Origin: a virus
Length of the DNA: 43,362 bases
IMG/VR virus record: IMGVR_UViG_3300024517_000029
Coordinates: 1 to 43,362 of that record
Reading direction: 5' to 3' (one strand)
This document shows, piece after piece, positions 4,501 through 22,515 of this stretch; positions within the stretch are counted from its first letter, which is position 1; every line of letters starts with the position of its first letter. Both the position numbers and the translations under genes were made by a program. The notes beneath the pieces were generated by a model that was given only the letters and a program-made list of their open reading frames with translations, was not told the DNA's origin and made no database searches.

Positions 4501-5195
4501 AACTTGATGAAGAAGTTGAAGCACATAAGAAACGTGCAGACGATCTAGAAGAGTTAGCAAAGAATGGAAATATTACAGCTAAAGAATCACTAGCAGAAGA
4601 GAACCGATTGATTGCTGAGGCAGAAGCGCAAAAAGCAGAACTAGAGAAACGTAAACAAAGGATTCAAATGGTTTCGTCAATACTACTTGCTTACAATTCT
4701 AATCTAGAACAAGGTGACGAGTCAGGAGTAGCATTAGCAAAAGCAATATCAAGCAAAGCAGTATTAGAACAATTCATATCTTCAATAGGTTCGTTCTATG
4801 ATGGAACTGAAGACACTGGTAGAGTTGGTAACGCGTTAGATTCTAAAGGTGGACGATTCGCAGTACTTCACGACAATGAACGTGTAATGACAGCGAAGCA
4901 AAACTCAATGATGGGTAATGTTTCTAATGATGAAGTTGCTAGAGTAATGGAAGATAGACGACTTGGAAGATTAGTTGATGGAAACCAAGTTGCTGTAGGA
5001 TGGGAAAACATAATGCTAGTTGAACAGCTAAATAATGTTAGTGATAAGCTGGATATGGTTAATAAGACTATTGAAAACAAGCCAGAAACGAACATACAAC
5101 TTGGAGCGATTACGCAAAAGACAATGGAGATTGTTGAAAGCAGAAAAAAGGGAGGTCTTAAGACGGTAAGCACATTTAAAGTTAAACCACAATGA
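1599..5195 (+). CDS. Tail tape measure protein
   Basis: A 1198-residue protein that sets tail length and is ejected into the host during infection. The N-terminal 180 residues are strongly charged coiled coil. They are followed by the conserved tape-measure core (about residues 210-400), with features such as LGATTRFTASQVSELQLELA and the GTSLRNMM segment. A hydrophobic stretch near residue 490 and another near 550-570 fit membrane insertion. From about 590 to 1030 it is again long coiled coil. Length and position, with baseplate genes directly downstream, fit a siphophage tail of moderate length. Its stop overlaps the next start (ATGA). Confidence 0.93.
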   Translation: MADKRINKDDIADKGLFDHITQGAKAAQAEIKTLTLTVNTLKQAAQGIKKGLGGASVGNTQGMKDFDQLAKQANQTAKAKLAIDKDILREKEKLRVAQQQQNKEIREEVALANSQKGSLERVRLESKKLRNEKEKLDLTTKKGNQRLKVVNKTLDRNNKILERNATKLGKQKMAIGRYKNALGGLKNALGQLGVAFGVFSLIKDSFNVIKDFQQAQANLASVLGVNVDQMKALTNQAKELGATTRFTASQVSELQLELAKLGFTQQQINDMTPATLALAEATGTELANAAAVAGSTLNGFGLAAKDTQRVVDVMAKSFSSSSLDMEKFKVGMAAVAPVAKTMGFSIEQTTAMLGSLTDSGLDASTAGTSLRNMMLEASKQGLTWKEALDKVNNAQDKAGVALELFGKRGVAAGVILAENQDKVAGLTDKLEDAEGAAAKMADTQRNTLGGALDLLRSSWEGLILSMDEAGGVGETLRKGIKFLADNLGTIVTVIIKAVRAFLAFKTVMFALKMNQQFKDWKAFGGSVKDVGKNMDQASSGARKFAKSLKRIGIGVAVALFTEFVAALWNIVSGASAAADQLERLQNIRKDGEEDLRLFNKAFKVQLENRRDLLDESIAAAERKRKQDLENGKDRIKVIEEEKEAIKAANDEYLLWLNRKDPLGRDQIELLSLRIEGAQNAIMMAENELSLNEKEKNKAVRDIRRFRIKEEILASKNSLKLLKSEIAQRRAALEALEPKNETKTEGRLIKPAGKADETPEKQISLLREIRDEQLKQIADVEEQEVLVARESAARIIEDKNLTNASDKDKAEFTKEINESLVLEITAIRKKFRDADLEAERVHQEEIAAIVLEAKDSELAQINDMFAVSRQERELLLLQSGKTEKEIARELTEFEIEQLEKRIQVYKDMLTEFPELEKEITGLEIELLKKKRSLIDKEIDWEKEKFKTQKDAIDLTTQLFIDSIDKKIAKLDEEVEAHKKRADDLEELAKNGNITAKESLAEENRLIAEAEAQKAELEKRKQRIQMVSSILLAYNSNLEQGDESGVALAKAISSKAVLEQFISSIGSFYDGTEDTGRVGNALDSKGGRFAVLHDNERVMTAKQNSMMGNVSNDEVARVMEDRRLGRLVDGNQVAVGWENIMLVEQLNNVSDKLDMVNKTIENKPETNIQLGAITQKTMEIVESRKKGGLKTVSTFKVKPQ

Positions 5196-11983: not shown

Positions 11984-12714
11984 TGCCAACAAAAATATAC
12001 ATAGCTCAGGCGTTTATAATTGCTGAAGACGTAGCGACTAGAACCCCTTATTTTAAAGCGAAGAAAATAGACGTAAAACATCAAAGATCTGTTAATGATC
12101 AATTCTCTTTTTATCCATCGGAAATACTGCCTAATTCTTCAATTGAAAATCAACCCATACAGCTTATTGTTCCTCAAGTTTTAGATTGGGATACTACAGA
12201 GCTTGAACCTACACAGTTGACGTACTTTGAGTTTGCTGATATAGTAGATGTTTCGGGTGTTGCTTACGCTAGTGCTGAAGCTTTAGACACTTATCTAAAC
12301 GAGAACTTAGGTTTTTTTGAGAGCACACCTTCCGTTGTTGTTCCAGACTACTTTAAAGATAGGATTGTTGTAACAACAATATCAAACAACTTTAATAGTA
12401 ATGTGCCAGCCAATGTGCCTGGGTTAACTTTCGTTATAACTTTAGATGGTGATTACGTATTTAACGCTATTGTCAACAACAACAACGATCAGAACGAAGA
12501 GCTTGAAATGTATTACGCTGTAAATGGTGCTACAATACTAGATAGTGTAGTGTTTAAAAGAGAGCAGAAGAACCAAGACGACAACATACAAGGCACTTAT
12601 GATATAGACGGACTAGTTATAGGTGATGTTGTCACCGTTCAGCTAGATACAAGGGGTGATAATGTTGATTTATTAACTAGAAGAATGATTATACGCTCAT
12701 GGAATCTTGTTTAA
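11983..12714 (+). CDS. Hypothetical tail/baseplate protein
   Basis: A 243-residue protein, strand-rich in its C-terminal half, where segments such as GLTFVITLDGDYVFNAIVNN and VFKREQKNQDDNIQGTYDI resemble a compact jelly-roll of the kind seen in phage fibre tips and collars. The resemblance is by eye only. It is coupled to the gene before it, and its last 16 bases overlap the cysteine-cluster gene that follows. Confidence 0.72.
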   Translation: MPTKIYIAQAFIIAEDVATRTPYFKAKKIDVKHQRSVNDQFSFYPSEILPNSSIENQPIQLIVPQVLDWDTTELEPTQLTYFEFADIVDVSGVAYASAEALDTYLNENLGFFESTPSVVVPDYFKDRIVVTTISNNFNSNVPANVPGLTFVITLDGDYVFNAIVNNNNDQNEELEMYYAVNGATILDSVVFKREQKNQDDNIQGTYDIDGLVIGDVVTVQLDTRGDNVDLLTRRMIIRSWNLV

Positions 12715-13037
12715 AATGTGTTAATAGCGCTTGCTGTAGGTTAGTTATAGAGACTTCAAAACAAGAATACGACTCGATGTCTGAAAGTTTGAAATCTAAT
12801 TTAGTGAAATATTCAGATGAGTTTATAGCTAAAAAACCAAGATACGAATCTAAGAGAGATGAAATAGACGAGATGTACGAAGAGATTTACGCTTACCTGC
12901 CTAAAAGCGAAGATGGACTATGTAAGCTACTCGACAGAAAAACAATGCTTTGTTCTGTGTATGACAAAAGACCAAAAGTATGTAGAGATTACGAATTAAA
13001 TAGATGTGAAAAAATTAGAGAAATATGTACGGATTAA
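12699..13037 (+). CDS. YkgJ-family cysteine cluster protein
   Basis: A 112-residue protein with the YkgJ-type layout: C4-x2-C7-x4-C12-C13 at the N-terminus, and further cysteines in GLCKLLDRKTMLCSVYDKRP-xxC-RDYELNRC toward the end. The family is thought to bind zinc or an iron-sulphur cluster, but its role is not settled. Its place inside the tail operon, overlapping both neighbours, is notable. It may modify or help mature a tail protein; that is inference. Confidence 0.8.
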   Translation: MESCLKCVNSACCRLVIETSKQEYDSMSESLKSNLVKYSDEFIAKKPRYESKRDEIDEMYEEIYAYLPKSEDGLCKLLDRKTMLCSVYDKRPKVCRDYELNRCEKIREICTD

Positions 13038-17980: not shown

Positions 17981-17996
17981 AACACATTTATTATTA

Positions 17997-19291
17997 TGAA
18001 AATTTACGATTCAGACAAGAACGTATACGATGCATCGAATGAGCGTATAGAGTTCATTTTCAATAACTTTGAGAGGATTTATATTTCATTCTCTGGAGGT
18101 AAGGATTCTGGAATTATGCTAAACCTTGTTTTAGATTATATGCGTAAAAACAACATAACCGAAAAGATTGGTTTAATGGTTATGGACAATGAAGCAAATT
18201 ACACCTTATCATTGGAGTTTATGCATCGAATAATCCAAGACAACTTAGACTTGTTAGATGTTTACTGGTGTTGCCTTCCAATTACCTTACCATGTACTGT
18301 AAGTAGTTACGAAACAACTTACATAACTTGGGGAGAGAAAGATAGAGGCAGATGGATAATGCCTATGCCTAAAGAGGATTATATAGTTAATATAGAAAAT
18401 TGCCCATTTGATTTTTATGAAGAAAACATGCACGATAAGGATTTTTACGATAATTTTTCTGTGTGGTATGGTCAAGGTAAACGATGTGCAAATTTAATAG
18501 GTATTAGAACCGATGAAAGTTTAAACAGGTATAGGGCTATAATGAACAAAAAGAAGATTATGGTTAACAACCTATGTTGGACTAGAAAAAACAAAGGAGA
18601 TTGCTTTAATTGTTATCCAATATACGATTGGAAAACAGAAGATGTATGGACTGGTAACGCTAAATTTGAATGGGATTACAATGAGTTGTATGATTTATTT
18701 TGGAAAGCTGGTTTAAGTGTTGCTCAAATGCGTGTAGCATCACCATTTATGAGTGAATCAAAGTCTAGTTTAAACCTATACAGGATAATAGACCCACACA
18801 TATGGAGGACTTTGTGCGCTAGGGTTTCTGGGGCTAACTTCTTAGCTACATACGGTAAGAAAATATCATACAATGGCTTCAAACTACCAAAAGGTCATTC
18901 TTGGAAAAGCTTCACTAAATTTCTTTTAGACACATTGCCTAATGAATCTTCTGAAAATTTTAGAAAGCGTTTTGCTCAGTCGATAAAATACTGGTGGAGA
19001 GTAGGGCGCGGTTTGTCAGACGAGGTAATTGAGGATATGAATAAGAACAATATTGATTTTATACTAGGAGAAAAGACTAGACACGGAAGGAAGGATAAGA
19101 CGTGTGTACGAATGTTACCCCCAGATCATTTAGATATGTTAAGAACTCATAATTCAGAGGTTACAAGCTGGAAGAGGTTTGCAATAACGATACTTAAAAA
19201 CGATCACACTTGCAAGTACTTAGGATTAGCACCAACACTAGAACAAGCAAAAAGACAAAAAGAGATACAAAACAAATATAAAAACCTTTAA
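17997..19291 (+). CDS. ibrA: IbrA-like PAPS reductase/ATP pyrophosphatase family protein
   Basis: A 431-residue protein of the phosphoadenosine phosphosulphate reductase-like family with a DUF3440-like C-terminus, as in IbrA. The ATP-pyrophosphatase P-loop SGGKDS is at residues 33-38, followed by family features GIRTDES (about 169-175), NCYPIYDWKTEDVW (about 205-218) and the C-terminal ILKNDHTCKYLGL. I used the ATG beginning MKIYDSDKNVYDAS, because the upstream in-frame ATG lies in the leader RNA hairpin. Such proteins adenylate or reduce sulphur compounds in other systems; the true IbrA reaction is not known. IbrB-like and two associated genes lie 1.8 kb downstream, separated by an inserted ectD-methyltransferase-ectC set. 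Confidence 0.85.
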
Positions 19292-19292
19292 T

Positions 19293-20144
19293 ATGAAAGA
19301 TGTATACGAGACTAGAAAAAACAGCACTTATTCAATATCAAAAAGGTTTGATAAAGTGTCTTATAGTAAGCCAAAATCATTAACTGTGGATCAGTTTAAT
19401 TACTATAACAATAACGGATTCTTAATAATAAAAAACTTCTTCAACAAAGATTTAATAACTAAGACTAAAGACGAATGTTATAATTTATTTGAAAATAACA
19501 ACGGTTGTTATGTAAATAAAGAGCCAAATTCTAATAAAGTTAGGTCTATACTTAACGTTCATGAAAACTTGAATATATCACCCGTATTAGATAGTGAATT
19601 AATTAATATTGTTGAATCGCTTTTAGGAGACGATGTTTACATGCACCAAAGTAGAATAAACTATAAAGATGGATCAGAGTCCAACGGATGGAATTGGCAT
19701 TCAGACTTTGAAACTTGGCACTCAAAAGATGGTATGCCTAGAATGAGGGCTATAACTGCTATGATTCCTGTTGATGACAACACAATAGATAATGGGTGTT
19801 TAAACTTTTTACCAAAATCACATAATAAATTCATTTCATGTCCAAAGGTTGGGGGTGTAAATCCAGAAAATGAGTTTAGTGAGCAAGTTGAGGGTGTTCC
19901 AGATTATGAATCAATAATGGCTATAAAAGAAAAATTCAATGTTGAAATATTTAATGCTGAATGTGTAGCTGGCGACTTAATTTTATTCGATTGCAATACA
20001 TTACATTATTCAGATTCTAACAAAACAAATAACAAGCGTACTAATCTTTATTTCGTTTTAAATTCAATAACAAATAAGCTAGTTAAACCATTTAACGAAG
20101 ATAATCACAGACCATTAGAGATGGGATATTATACAAACAATTAA
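19293..20144 (+). CDS. ectD: EctD-like ectoine hydroxylase family Fe(II)/2-oxoglutarate dioxygenase
   Basis: A 283-residue protein of the PhyH superfamily, very close in pattern to ectoine hydroxylase. The N-terminus has DVYETR and KRFDKVSY; residues 119-123 read QSRIN; the signature WHSDFETWH-x2-DGMPRMRA is at 135-153, giving iron ligands H136 and D138. The distal ligand H238 lies in FDCNTLHYS, and R249 is placed to bind 2-oxoglutarate. Length is near the usual 300. EctD turns ectoine into 5-hydroxyectoine using O2, and most family members lie in full ectABC operons. Here only an EctC homologue is nearby. The substrate might be ectoine from the host or a related compound; the residues shown support activity but not the substrate. 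Confidence 0.85.
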   Translation: MKDVYETRKNSTYSISKRFDKVSYSKPKSLTVDQFNYYNNNGFLIIKNFFNKDLITKTKDECYNLFENNNGCYVNKEPNSNKVRSILNVHENLNISPVLDSELINIVESLLGDDVYMHQSRINYKDGSESNGWNWHSDFETWHSKDGMPRMRAITAMIPVDDNTIDNGCLNFLPKSHNKFISCPKVGGVNPENEFSEQVEGVPDYESIMAIKEKFNVEIFNAECVAGDLILFDCNTLHYSDSNKTNNKRTNLYFVLNSITNKLVKPFNEDNHRPLEMGYYTNN

Positions 20145-20155
20145 ACTAATAAATT

Positions 20156-20689
20156 ATGAAAGAATCAGAATTAAGCTTAAAAAAAATAGCTAGAAAACAC
20201 AAACCAGTTAAACAATATTTACGGTTGTTTCTGGAAAGGTATGAAGAGTTGTTCGTGTCAAAGAGATATGATAAATTAACAATTTTAGAAATTGGTGTTG
20301 GTGGGTATAAAAATCCAAAAAAAGGAGGTGGATCAGTAAAAATGTGGGCTGAGTATTTCCCCAATTCAACTATCGTCTGTATTGATTTAAACGATAAATA
20401 TTTAGAATTTCAAAACAATGTTAATTTTCATCAAGGTTCACAAACAGATATTGAATTTTTAAATAGATTATCTAGTGATTATGGAGGCTTTGATATTGTT
20501 ATTGATGATGCTTCTCATATAACTAAGAATACAATAATAACTTTTGAGGCGCTATGGAATATGACTAGTCAATATTATATTATAGAAGACCTTCATATGA
20601 AAGCCTCAGAAGGCACTAGAGAATACTTTGAGAAAGTTTACGGTTCAGACTTCAATACAAAGAACTTATGCGTAATCCAAAAAACTTAA
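20156..20689 (+). CDS. Class I SAM methyltransferase, MycE/macrocin O-methyltransferase-like
   Basis: A 177-residue protein. The SAM-binding motif LEIGVGG is at residues 44-50 and is followed by YKNPKKGGGSVKMW, typical of the family that includes the metal-dependent sugar O-methyltransferases MycE and TylE. An acidic residue at strand 2 (D77 in CIDLND), then FDIVIDDASH (112-121) and YIIEDL (141-146), supply acidic residues that bind metal in that family. It lies between the EctD-like and EctC-like genes with the same TTAATAAATTATG-type start context, so it belongs to the same pathway. The acceptor is unknown; an ectoine-related product or a nucleoside are possible. Confidence 0.78.
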   Translation: MKESELSLKKIARKHKPVKQYLRLFLERYEELFVSKRYDKLTILEIGVGGYKNPKKGGGSVKMWAEYFPNSTIVCIDLNDKYLEFQNNVNFHQGSQTDIEFLNRLSSDYGGFDIVIDDASHITKNTIITFEALWNMTSQYYIIEDLHMKASEGTREYFEKVYGSDFNTKNLCVIQKT

Positions 20690-20695
20690 TAAATT

Positions 20696-21103
20696 ATGAA
20701 AACAATAGATATAAAAGATGTAAAAGGTGTTGATTTTAATGGGGGTACTAGTTATAGAACTGTACTAGAAAAAGATAAATTAGGATTTGCTATGATGGAA
20801 ACTAGGATAAATAAAGGGGGTGCTTACAAGTGGCACTACAAAAACCATCAAGAAGCATGTATGTGTATATCTGGTAACGGTTACATTGAAGACTTAACAA
20901 CTGGAGAAATAAGCAATATATCCAAAGGAGTAACCTACCTTGTAGACGATCATCAACCACACTTATTTACAGCGTTAACAGACGTTGTATTAGTTAGTGT
21001 TTTTAATCCTCCATTAACGGGTATGGAAACTCATGATGAAGATGGTTCTTATAGTTCTAGTGACGAGTTTTTTGAACACATGGATAAAAAACATAGTAAT
21101 TAA
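20696..21103 (+). CDS. ectC: EctC-like ectoine synthase family cupin
   Basis: A 135-residue cupin strongly patterned on ectoine synthase, which cyclises N-gamma-acetyl-diaminobutyrate to ectoine. Shared stretches include NHQEACMCISGNGYIEDL, HLFTALTDV and SVFNPPLTG with ETHDEDGSY. The three residues known to bind iron in EctC (E57, Y85, H93) map with a constant offset of four to E53, Y81 and H89. F103 and E111 match active-site F107 and E115. The conserved Cys105 is Ser101 here, and the N-terminal W21/R25 region is shortened and changed (SYRTVLEKD). These changes suggest an altered substrate. EctA and EctB are absent from the window. Confidence 0.85.
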   Translation: MKTIDIKDVKGVDFNGGTSYRTVLEKDKLGFAMMETRINKGGAYKWHYKNHQEACMCISGNGYIEDLTTGEISNISKGVTYLVDDHQPHLFTALTDVVLVSVFNPPLTGMETHDEDGSYSSSDEFFEHMDKKHSN

Positions 21104-21126
21104 TTATAACTTAAATAATAAATAAA

Positions 21127-21648
21127 ATGGGAAAATTCACATCACCTGTTTACAATGTACTAAGAGTACATGTCGACAAAATACAAGCCAACGATTATAA
21201 CCCTAACAGCGTAGCGCCCCCAGAGATGGAGTTACTTGAAACCTCTATTTGGGAGGATGGATATACGATGCCTGTAGTATGCTTTTATGATGAAGAAAAC
21301 GACAAATACATAGTTGTCGATGGGTTTCACAGGCTTTCTGTTTTAAAGAACAGTAAAAGAGTATACGAACGTGAGCAAGGATATTTGCCTATATCTGTAA
21401 TTGACAAGGCTCTCGGTGACAGAATGGCTTCTACTATTCGGCACAACAGAGCTAGAGGATCACATAACTTAGAACTAATGAGTACTATAGTTAGTGAACT
21501 TGTCGAAATGGGCAAAGGTGATGCGTGGATATGTAAACATGTAGGTATGAGTAAAGACGAACTACTTAGAATGAAGCAAATTACTGGACTAGCTGCATTG
21601 TTTTTAAATAAAGACTTTTCGGATAGTTGGGATGCTGAAACAGCATGA
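21127..21648 (+). CDS. ibrB: IbrB-like ParB N-terminal domain protein
   Basis: A 173-residue protein of the ParB/Srx fold. It shows the ParB pattern: IQANDYNPN near residue 19, then ETSIWEDGYTMPVV, and KYIVVDGFHRLSVL with the GFHR box, followed by NRARGSH-like helix and a C-terminal helical DNA-binding-like segment (ICKHVGMSKDELLRM). In many phages and in the E. coli ibrAB locus, this family pairs with the PAPS-reductase-like IbrA. CTP binding or nuclease activity occurs in relatives and is not proven here. The stop overlaps the next start by four bases. Confidence 0.82.
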   Translation: MGKFTSPVYNVLRVHVDKIQANDYNPNSVAPPEMELLETSIWEDGYTMPVVCFYDEENDKYIVVDGFHRLSVLKNSKRVYEREQGYLPISVIDKALGDRMASTIRHNRARGSHNLELMSTIVSELVEMGKGDAWICKHVGMSKDELLRMKQITGLAALFLNKDFSDSWDAETA

Positions 21649-22088
21649 TACAGGTATACAAACCATATTGGAAATGGGAATGTTACAATAATGGGATGTG
21701 GAACAAGGTGAATAAAAAAACTGAATCTATAATGTTAGAAACGGCTATTGAATTTACTGGAAACCATATCCTATACGGTAAATCCATGAATGATGTAGTG
21801 TTCAAATGGAACAATACTATAGAAAATCATTTAACAAATAAGAGTATTAATAGACGCGCTTTTTTAGGTCATTGTGCCGTTTTTTATAAACATCAAATAC
21901 CTGAATACATAGTACGTATGGCTTGGAAAGAGTTAAATAACGAACAACGAAGGCTTGCAGATTTAGAAGCTGAAAGAACTATAAAGGAATGGGAAATATG
22001 GTACATGATAAAGTTAGAGGGTATATCGAAATGTGGGAAAAAAGATGCTATAAAGACGGGATTCCAGATGAAGCTCCTTTTCAATTAG
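21645..22088 (+). CDS. IbrB-associated phage protein
   Basis: A 147-residue protein starting MIQVYKPYWKWECYNNGMW, rich in Trp and with FTGNHILYG and FLGHCAVFYKHQIPEYIVRMAW segments. I recall similar proteins next to IbrB-like genes in phages, but cannot name the family. Its last 100 bases overlap the next gene in another frame, and its final 30 or so residues (from about KLEGISKCGKKD) lack the character of the rest. The original gene probably ended near codon 115-120 and lost its stop, or the overlap is real. Confidence 0.7.
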   Translation: MIQVYKPYWKWECYNNGMWNKVNKKTESIMLETAIEFTGNHILYGKSMNDVVFKWNNTIENHLTNKSINRRAFLGHCAVFYKHQIPEYIVRMAWKELNNEQRRLADLEAERTIKEWEIWYMIKLEGISKCGKKDAIKTGFQMKLLFN

Positions 22089-22261
22089 CGGATAAAGTAC
22101 CATCATACAAAAGAATATGCATTGCTATTTTAAAAAACGATATGAATTTAACATCATTAGGATTCGAACCAAAAAACTCTAAATACTACTCCATATTAAA
22201 GAAGATTGAAATAGATGCACGACCTACAAAAAATGGTAAACAATTAAAATTAAAGTTATGA
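21989..22261 (+). CDS. IbrA-associated small protein with LKND motif
   Basis: A 90-residue protein, basic and helical. It contains GIPDEAPFQL and VPSYKRICIAILKNDMNLTS, where SYKRICIAILKND-LGF echoes SWKRFAITILKND-LGL at the C-terminus of the IbrA-like protein. The two may be related modules or bind the same partner. A second ATG three codons in (21998) is equally good. Its stop overlaps the MazG-like start (ATGA). Confidence 0.72.
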   Translation: MGNMVHDKVRGYIEMWEKRCYKDGIPDEAPFQLADKVPSYKRICIAILKNDMNLTSLGFEPKNSKYYSILKKIEIDARPTKNGKQLKLKL

Positions 22262-22515
22262 AACAGATCATAGAAAATAATTACGATGTAACAGTAAAAA
22301 GAGGATGTATAAATACAGAAACAACTATACATGAATTCTTATATAAGTTGTATGAGGAAGTGCATGAGCTTCACGATGAAATAGAATTAGGAAACACAAT
22401 AAACCATGAACTTAGTGATGTTATTCTAGTTTGTTTAAATCTAGCTAAACATTTTAATATTGATATTGAATCAGAGATAATTAAAGTAATAGATATCAAT
22501 AAATCAAGGATTTAA
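22258..22515 (+). CDS. MazG-like nucleotide pyrophosphohydrolase
   Basis: An 85-residue all-helical protein with the MazG-type metal motif: E34-x2-E37 in LYEEVHELHD, then E51-x2-D54 in HELSDVIL. It has the length of a single MazG-like domain. Members hydrolyse NTPs or dNTPs to monophosphates and PPi, either to clean up nucleotide pools, to feed base-modification pathways, or to lower alarmone signals. It is the last gene of the ibrA-ectC operon, before the replication promoter. Confidence 0.75.
   Translation: MKQIIENNYDVTVKRGCINTETTIHEFLYKLYEEVHELHDEIELGNTINHELSDVILVCLNLAKHFNIDIESEIIKVIDINKSRI

Follow-up and report, generated by a model that had tools for sequence, protein, structure and literature searches.

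Comparison of viral loci shows that an EctC-like cupin belongs to a five-gene core that is inherited as a unit with the protein pair IbrA and IbrB. We analysed a virus from IMG/VR (record IMGVR_UViG_3300024517_000029; its 43,362 bases, with tail, terminase and replication genes, are hereafter called the window), in which eight plus-strand genes fill positions 17,996-22,515, overlapping or no more than 23 bases apart (Table 1). The core comprises IbrA, the EctC-like cupin, IbrB, an all-helical protein (g147) and a small DUF3440 protein. Gene order across the related loci identifies the true insertions in the window as an EctD-like dioxygenase and a methyltransferase, a rare add-on in the gap between IbrA and EctC. 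The five core genes and this add-on very probably act as one functional unit. These genes are best explained as a phage modification module, whose most elaborate version is that of the window.

The core cassette in viral genomes

A profile scan of 2.9 million viral contigs with an EctC alignment gave 80 loci. An IbrB scan of the same contigs was restricted to the best 80 of about 590 relatives, which is the subset nearest the window IbrB; the presence of EctC was no selection criterion. Members at the loci were called by phmmer on all reading frames, and raw locus counts are not independent since some contigs carry two locus numbers. IbrA, EctC, IbrB, g147 and the small DUF3440 protein co-occur in nearly all loci, in several rotated orders, and gene order is conserved across 154 loci. 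Among the 80 IbrB-seeded loci, 72 have EctC, 77 IbrA, 76 g147 and 75 the small DUF3440 protein.

With repeats removed, 103 distinct IbrBs are accompanied by EctC, and in 45 of them EctC and IbrB form a single protein. EctC is the usual occupant of the space between IbrA and IbrB. Because it is co-inherited with IbrA and fused to IbrB, we assign EctC to the core of the cassette rather than to inserted or carried genes. The original prediction had placed EctD, the methyltransferase and EctC as insertions between ibrA and ibrB; this stands for the first two and not for EctC, which normally occupies that place. Nor are EctC and EctD one inserted pair, as had been assumed: the EctC core is found in about 100 distinct cassettes, with EctD and the methyltransferase as a rare addition.

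The association is confined to the viral loci in our samples. Neither IbrA nor IbrB was found at 43 bacterial genome loci with EctC (about 6 kb of flank) or at 30 EctC loci of Actinomycetota (about 1.5 kb of flank on each side), 73 loci in total, with most phyla outside the sample. MT835761, a candidate phage match, was rejected as it resembles a bacterial ectB-ectC contig, and it served as a bacterial control.

IbrA of the window matches PF11922 (188.4 bits), PF01507 (35 bits) and phrog_2302 (5.5e-108). Its predicted model (predicted local distance difference test score, pLDDT, 75) matches the folds of phosphoadenosine phosphosulfate (PAPS) reductase, FAD synthase and CysD, and the PP-loop motif SGGKDS is invariant among the IbrAs compared. 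In the IbrA tree, EctC-bearing IbrAs lie on one side of a branch with a Shimodaira-Hasegawa-like approximate likelihood ratio test (SH-aLRT) support of 100, opposite 13 EctC-less IbrAs that include all seven from the IbrB-seeded set; none of the sampled EctC-less IbrAs falls within the EctC-bearing clade. A total of 27 positions are near-fixed in the EctC-bearing group and different in the EctC-less group. Among them is the DxExxY stretch that follows the PP-loop (DYEAQ to DNEAN), which in PAPS reductases sits near the substrate.

The linkage to IbrA and IbrB that had been proposed for the window thus gains support from this single EctC-bearing clade, from the EctC-IbrB fusions and from one locus, L103, in which a single 499-aa frame encodes EctC, the methyltransferase and IbrB with EctD just upstream. 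The counterparts of this fusion in the window are separate genes, with the methyltransferase first, then EctC and IbrB. At another locus (L102:4380-5719) IbrA consists of two overlapping frames with a break near 4750, which may mean that the record contains a frameshift or that IbrA has two subunits there. A second, distinct phosphosulfate-reductase-like gene with an ISGGKTS motif adjoins the cassette at L006:5155-5988.

The window IbrB matches phrog_2159 (6.6e-76) and the PDB ParB structure 4umk (E 0.0036 over residues 10-77). Together with IbrA it forms an IbrA/IbrB pair (PAPS-reductase/DUF3440 protein plus a nearby ParB-like protein), with three genes between the two. A serine-kinase-like enzyme of the ParB/Srx type is another conceivable role for IbrB. 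The original prediction left the two small genes of the core, which lie between IbrB and MazG, without names. The g147 model (pLDDT 91) is all-helical, has no PDB fold match and among viral models matches only A0A649V0K8. The small DUF3440 protein (PF11922, 33.9 bits, profile positions 137-177) is related to the IbrA C-terminus.

Isolated phages also carry the cassette: mycobacteriophages Gaia and Nebkiss and Pseudoalteromonas phage XCL1123, so that its hosts include Mycobacterium smegmatis as well as marine bacteria. Gaia (gp103-gp107) and XCL1123 have the core cassette, without EctD or methyltransferase. In GenBank, Gaia gp104 and two XCL1123 genes are labelled 'ectoine synthase/ParB multidomain protein'. 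GIY-YIG-like endonuclease genes lie within the cassette at L032:5275-5592, L106:2532-2852 and as Gaia gp105 (L008:7890-8264), as if it were a homing-element target.

The same two proteins form the IbrA/IbrB pair of E. coli (YbdN/YbdM type), where they are normally adjacent. About 215 phage records contain the pair and 218 contain IbrB; in seven extra phage records that we inspected the pair lacks EctC. Unlike these ordinary pairs, the EctC-bearing clade has its 27 specific residues in IbrA and usually two extra core genes. As had been anticipated, we found no paper describing this module or its function, and the EctC-ParB link is partly visible in GenBank. We regard the EctC-dependent clade of the IbrA/IbrB module and its rarer EctD/methyltransferase extension as new; the pair itself and the EctC-ParB annotation link were known.

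Altered ectoine-type enzymes and the rare add-on

The window EctC scores 121.7 bits against PF06339 (cut-off 27), 126.5 bits against the NCBIfam ectoine synthase model NF009806 (cut-off 128) and 6.7e-28 against the PDB L-ectoine synthase 5bxx. In the numbering of the Paenibacillus lautus enzyme (PMC6344544), all 108 phage EctCs share S23, R25, T40, Y52, H55, E57, Y84, P108 and H116; 107 have H92, and the residue at position 106 is Phe or Trp. The window equivalents of E57, Y84, H92, R25, T40 and Y52 are E53, Y81, H89, R21, T36 and Y48. Judged by this alignment, the iron site and the catalytic core of phage EctCs are intact.

The substrate side differs. Trp21 is fixed in 437 EctCs from ect clusters and kept, sometimes shifted, in 145 orphan EctCs, and its change to Ala leaves 9.7% of the activity (PMC6344544). 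In phage EctCs it is replaced, mostly by Phe; a Trp remains within the segment in 1 of 108, and in the window there is none. The carboxylate-binding Asn38 has mostly given way to Thr, His or Met, and His is known in bacteria too. With the iron and catalytic residues almost fully conserved and Trp21 and, mostly, Asn38 replaced, phage EctCs have probably retained the chemistry and probably act on a different substrate. EctC has known side reactions with glutamine and N-alpha-acetyl-diaminobutyrate (N-alpha-ADABA) (PMC4795551), and therefore a substrate other than N-gamma-ADABA is plausible.

The loss of the conserved Cys, which the original prediction took as a sign of new function, is weak evidence: Ser occupies Cys104 in 37 of 108 phage EctCs and frequently in orphan EctCs, and the C104S variant of P. 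lautus EctC retains about 60% of its activity (PMC6344544). The loss of Trp21 in EctC and the Phe-to-Trp change in EctD described below are the stronger changes. They agree with the view that the enzymes were repurposed rather than retained for ectoine biosynthesis.

In the EctC tree, phage and bacterial EctCs fall on opposite sides of one branch (93/93; 92% of bootstrap trees), and the phage branch keeps an SH-aLRT of 97 when plasmid-borne orphan EctCs are added. Bacterial orphan EctCs of groups 2-3 (PMC5924519) resemble the phage proteins in that they are solitary, have Ser at Cys104 and show a shifted aromatic residue (VDWGNG vs VDFNGG); unlike them, the phage EctCs are a separate clade tied to IbrA/IbrB. 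Two orphan EctC-like genes on Burkholderia and Agrobacterium plasmids (L257:2489-2866 and L258:2501-2887) adjoin adenylate-forming enzymes, one with an acyl carrier protein, which suggests EctC-type cyclases in natural-product pathways. Mycobacterium abscessus has orphan EctCs of group 1, which are not regarded as true ectoine synthases (PMC5924519) and could be prophage copies of the cassette.

The window EctD matches PDB EctD 3emr at 4.1e-60. Its top profile is the EctD equivalog TIGR02408, with 188.6 bits, far under the cut-off of 336.5. The three phage EctDs that we found score 188.6, 173.2 and 285 bits, compared to 358-436 for 11 intact bacterial EctDs. In the test proposed for the window, EctC and EctD profiles thus come top, ahead of other cupins and PhyH-type equivalogs. 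The iron triad H136, D138 and H238 and the 2-oxoglutarate residues S240 and R249 are kept (roles from PMC2871039). These triad residues and the other landmarks named for the window are all in place: QSRIN in EctD, LEIGVGG in the methyltransferase, and E53, Y81, H89, FNPPLTG and the Ser for Cys in EctC.

The EctD signature F-x-WHSDFETWH-x-EDG-M/L-P is not matched, the phage form being WxWHSDFETWHxxDGMP. Its first residue is Trp in 3 of 3 phage EctDs and Phe in 33 of 33 bacterial ones, and EDG has Lys (window) or Gln (L103) in place of its Glu. The corresponding Phe143Trp variant of Virgibacillus salexigens EctD is reported to be inactive (unpublished data cited in PMC2871039). By the TIGR02408 and signature criteria phage EctDs are not ectoine hydroxylases; they may act similarly on a related ring.

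The WHSDFETWH pattern at the DNA level occurs in two viral contigs besides the window among the 2.9 million. Both (L097 and L103) carry the same cassette with EctD between IbrA and EctC. One branch (100/96) splits the three phage EctDs from 33 bacterial EctDs. Bacteria with a solitary ectC, by comparison, are reported to lack ectD entirely (PMC3979721).

The methyltransferase matches PDB 3ssm (3e-27), the demethylmacrocin O-methyltransferase 8ia9 (9e-16) and phrog_21658 (1e-17); only about 135 of the 419 residues of 3ssm align, and there is no Pfam match. D118, H121, E144 and D145 of the window protein align with D275, H278, E303 and D304 of MycE, which we take to be its metal and catalytic residues.

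Between the window and L103, protein identity is 64% for IbrA, 44% for EctD, 63% for the methyltransferase, 48% for EctC and 73% for IbrB. The three EctD carriers differ in their guanine plus cytosine (G+C) content (34%, 40% and 52%) and share 25-73% protein identity. They are apart in the EctC tree, and the window is apart from L097 and L103 in the IbrA tree. Because the carriers are scattered in these trees while their EctDs share one branch, the pattern fits an add-on transferred between cassettes; loss elsewhere is possible. The methyltransferase is found only with EctD, and EctD only with EctC. Such nesting is what a sequential pathway predicts, here with small numbers.

A candidate DNA modification and its alternatives

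In the modification module that we favour, the EctC-like enzyme would cyclise a small substrate, which need not be N-gamma-acetyl-diaminobutyrate, to an ectoine-like cyclic amidine. This ring would be hydroxylated by the EctD-like enzyme, and the methyltransferase would methylate the new hydroxyl. With less certainty, IbrA might then spend ATP to adenylate an acceptor and join the product to it, and IbrB, through its ParB-like domain and probable helix-turn-helix, might direct the reaction to DNA. A precedent for the joining step is lysidine synthetase, a PP-loop enzyme that joins lysine to a cytosine base. The likely outcome would be phage DNA with a hypermodified base, protected from host nucleases.

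We propose DNA as the acceptor because EctC and the methyltransferase are fused to the ParB-like IbrB, because IbrA matches DndC and other PP-loop profiles and folds, because replication and recombination genes are the cassette neighbourhood, and because in Dnd and Dpd a ParB-superfamily protein works alongside the DNA-modification enzyme (PMC12839542). The predicted likeness to DndB/DndC and DpdA/DpdB is that of a nucleic-acid modification enzyme with a ParB-superfamily partner, and DndC, like IbrA, is a PP-loop protein (PMC12839542, PMC11662687). We give the whole chain, from the EctC cyclase to attachment on phage DNA, slightly less than an even chance. Our more specific proposal is tentative: an ectoine-like cyclic amidine, which some lineages would also hydroxylate and O-methylate, would be placed covalently on DNA bases by a PP-loop ATPase and a ParB-type partner, as a new class of hypermodification.

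Several observations weigh against such a DNA mark. To our knowledge no chemistry has been described for any IbrA/IbrB pair. DNA-modification profiles gave nothing at cut-off, and the genes scanned included neither a nucleotide hydroxymethylase nor a base kinase. IbrB scores below the cut-off for Pfam ParB_N, and its C-terminal helix-turn-helix is putative. The hydroxylation and methylation steps draw on EctD in three phages and the methyltransferase in two. Because the Phe-to-Trp change is reported to inactivate the V. salexigens enzyme, phage EctD could be altered or dead. E. coli-type IbrA and IbrB, finally, are annotated in phage records as co-activators of prophage gene expression, and a regulatory role is therefore possible.

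The strongest rival, which we consider unlikely, is a free small molecule: the phage would make a diffusible cyclic amino-acid derivative (a metallophore, a defence inhibitor or a signal), with IbrA and IbrB supplying an activated precursor and no attachment to DNA. EctC, EctD and MycE-type enzymes all use small-molecule substrates, the active site of EctC is buried at the end of a deep tunnel (PMC6344544), and the orphan relatives next to adenylate-forming enzymes, one of them with an acyl carrier protein, point the same way. Such a product does not explain why so many EctCs, and in L103 the methyltransferase as well, are fused to a ParB-like protein, and the core contains no exporter or carrier protein.

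A regulatory module without synthesis is improbable; here IbrA and IbrB would co-activate transcription and the cupin would sense a ligand. Cupins can serve as sensor domains, and the co-activator annotation of the pair would be accounted for. Against it, the iron and catalytic residues of EctC are invariant or nearly so in 108 phage proteins, the PP-loop of IbrA is invariant, and two tailoring enzymes join the set.

Slightly less probable still is a Dnd-like sulfur modification, with IbrA as a sulfurtransferase of the DndC type and the other enzymes (cupin, EctD, methyltransferase) as unrelated cargo. IbrA shares the PP-loop fold and weakly matches DndC and other PP-loop profiles, at 18.2 bits for the DndC equivalog against a cut-off of 290.4. 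This weak match aside, a PADLOC search of the eight cassette proteins gave no Dnd hit. Unlike Dnd, the cassette has a cupin cyclase, and the co-inheritance of EctC with IbrA and its fusion to IbrB are not those of cargo.

Osmoprotection, in which an auxiliary metabolic gene lets the phage finish host ectoine or hydroxyectoine, is very improbable. A 2026 survey read viral ectoine synthase as an osmotic-stress helper (PMC13079714), and the homology of both enzymes to EctC and EctD, with catalytic residues kept, is clear. As the original prediction noted for the ectA and ectB genes, however, no EctA or EctB profile match exists anywhere in the window. Viral EctC stands with IbrA or IbrB in nearly all loci, compared to 0 of 73 for bacterial EctC, and the carriers infect M. 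smegmatis besides marine hosts. We reject the ectoine osmolyte pathway as the principal explanation because EctA and EctB are absent and the defining residues of both enzymes are changed, namely Trp21 of EctC and the signature Phe of EctD. Viral 'ectoine synthase' genes that were read as osmotic-stress helpers may instead belong to an IbrA/IbrB module.

Chance clustering or an assembly chimera, for which only the rarity of EctD with the methyltransferase speaks, can practically be dismissed: related loci have the same arrangement, with EctD in the same slot of three phages of differing G+C and diverged proteins, among tailed-phage genes of even G+C. The original prediction had named chimerism as a reason to abandon the module, and the set recurs in other phages.

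IbrA/IbrB pairs occur in more than 200 sequenced phage records and in E. coli, with no established biochemical function in the papers that we found. A constant and often fused cyclase in one IbrA clade, together with a hydroxylase and a methyltransferase, gives a chemical handle on what the pair does. A product that marks DNA would add a new kind of chemistry to phage DNA, and a free product would be a new metabolite made by phages. Should the predicted chemistry be shown, the module would be categorically new. Isolated carriers exist, one on M. smegmatis, and the question is therefore directly testable.

Gene layout and neighbourhood in the window

The genes lie where the original prediction had put them, on the plus strand and tightly packed or overlapping, with homologies far beyond chance. 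Promoter and terminator scans of the window gave nothing above chance level.

Table 1. Genes of the cassette in the window, in genomic order
Gene product	Position	Strand	Place in cassette	Remarks
IbrA-like PP-loop ATPase (PAPS-reductase fold + DUF3440)	17996..19291 (open from 17939)	+	core	
EctD-like Fe(II)/2-oxoglutarate dioxygenase	19293..20144	+	accessory	PDB, TIGR02408; WNWHSDFETWHSKDGMP
S-adenosylmethionine (SAM)-dependent O-methyltransferase, SAM/metal-binding core like MycE and macrocin-type enzymes	20156..20689	+	accessory	
EctC-like iron cupin (putative ring-closing hydro-lyase)	20696..21103	+	core	
IbrB-like ParB/sulfiredoxin-type protein, probable C-terminal helix-turn-helix	21127..21648	+	core	
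g147, all-helical, 147 aa	21645..22088	+	core	no family match
Small DUF3440 protein, 90 aa	21989..22261	+	core	overlaps g147
MazG-like pyrophosphohydrolase	22258..22515	+	end of run, loosely associated	

The MazG-like protein scores 25.5 bits against PF03819 (cut-off 22). By phmmer, only L057 (7111-7359) shares with the window a MazG-like gene behind the small DUF3440 gene. One of these two MazG-bearing loci is without EctC. Downstream of the MazG-like gene, the window continues with a DnaD-like gene and then a primase/helicase.

The host of the window virus is likely a member of the Bacteroidota because its terminase is nearest in sequence to those of Nonlabens, Bacteroides and Olleya phages. 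In the tail-side region, positions 12699-13037 encode a small CxxCxxCC protein (PF03692), a putative metal chelator.

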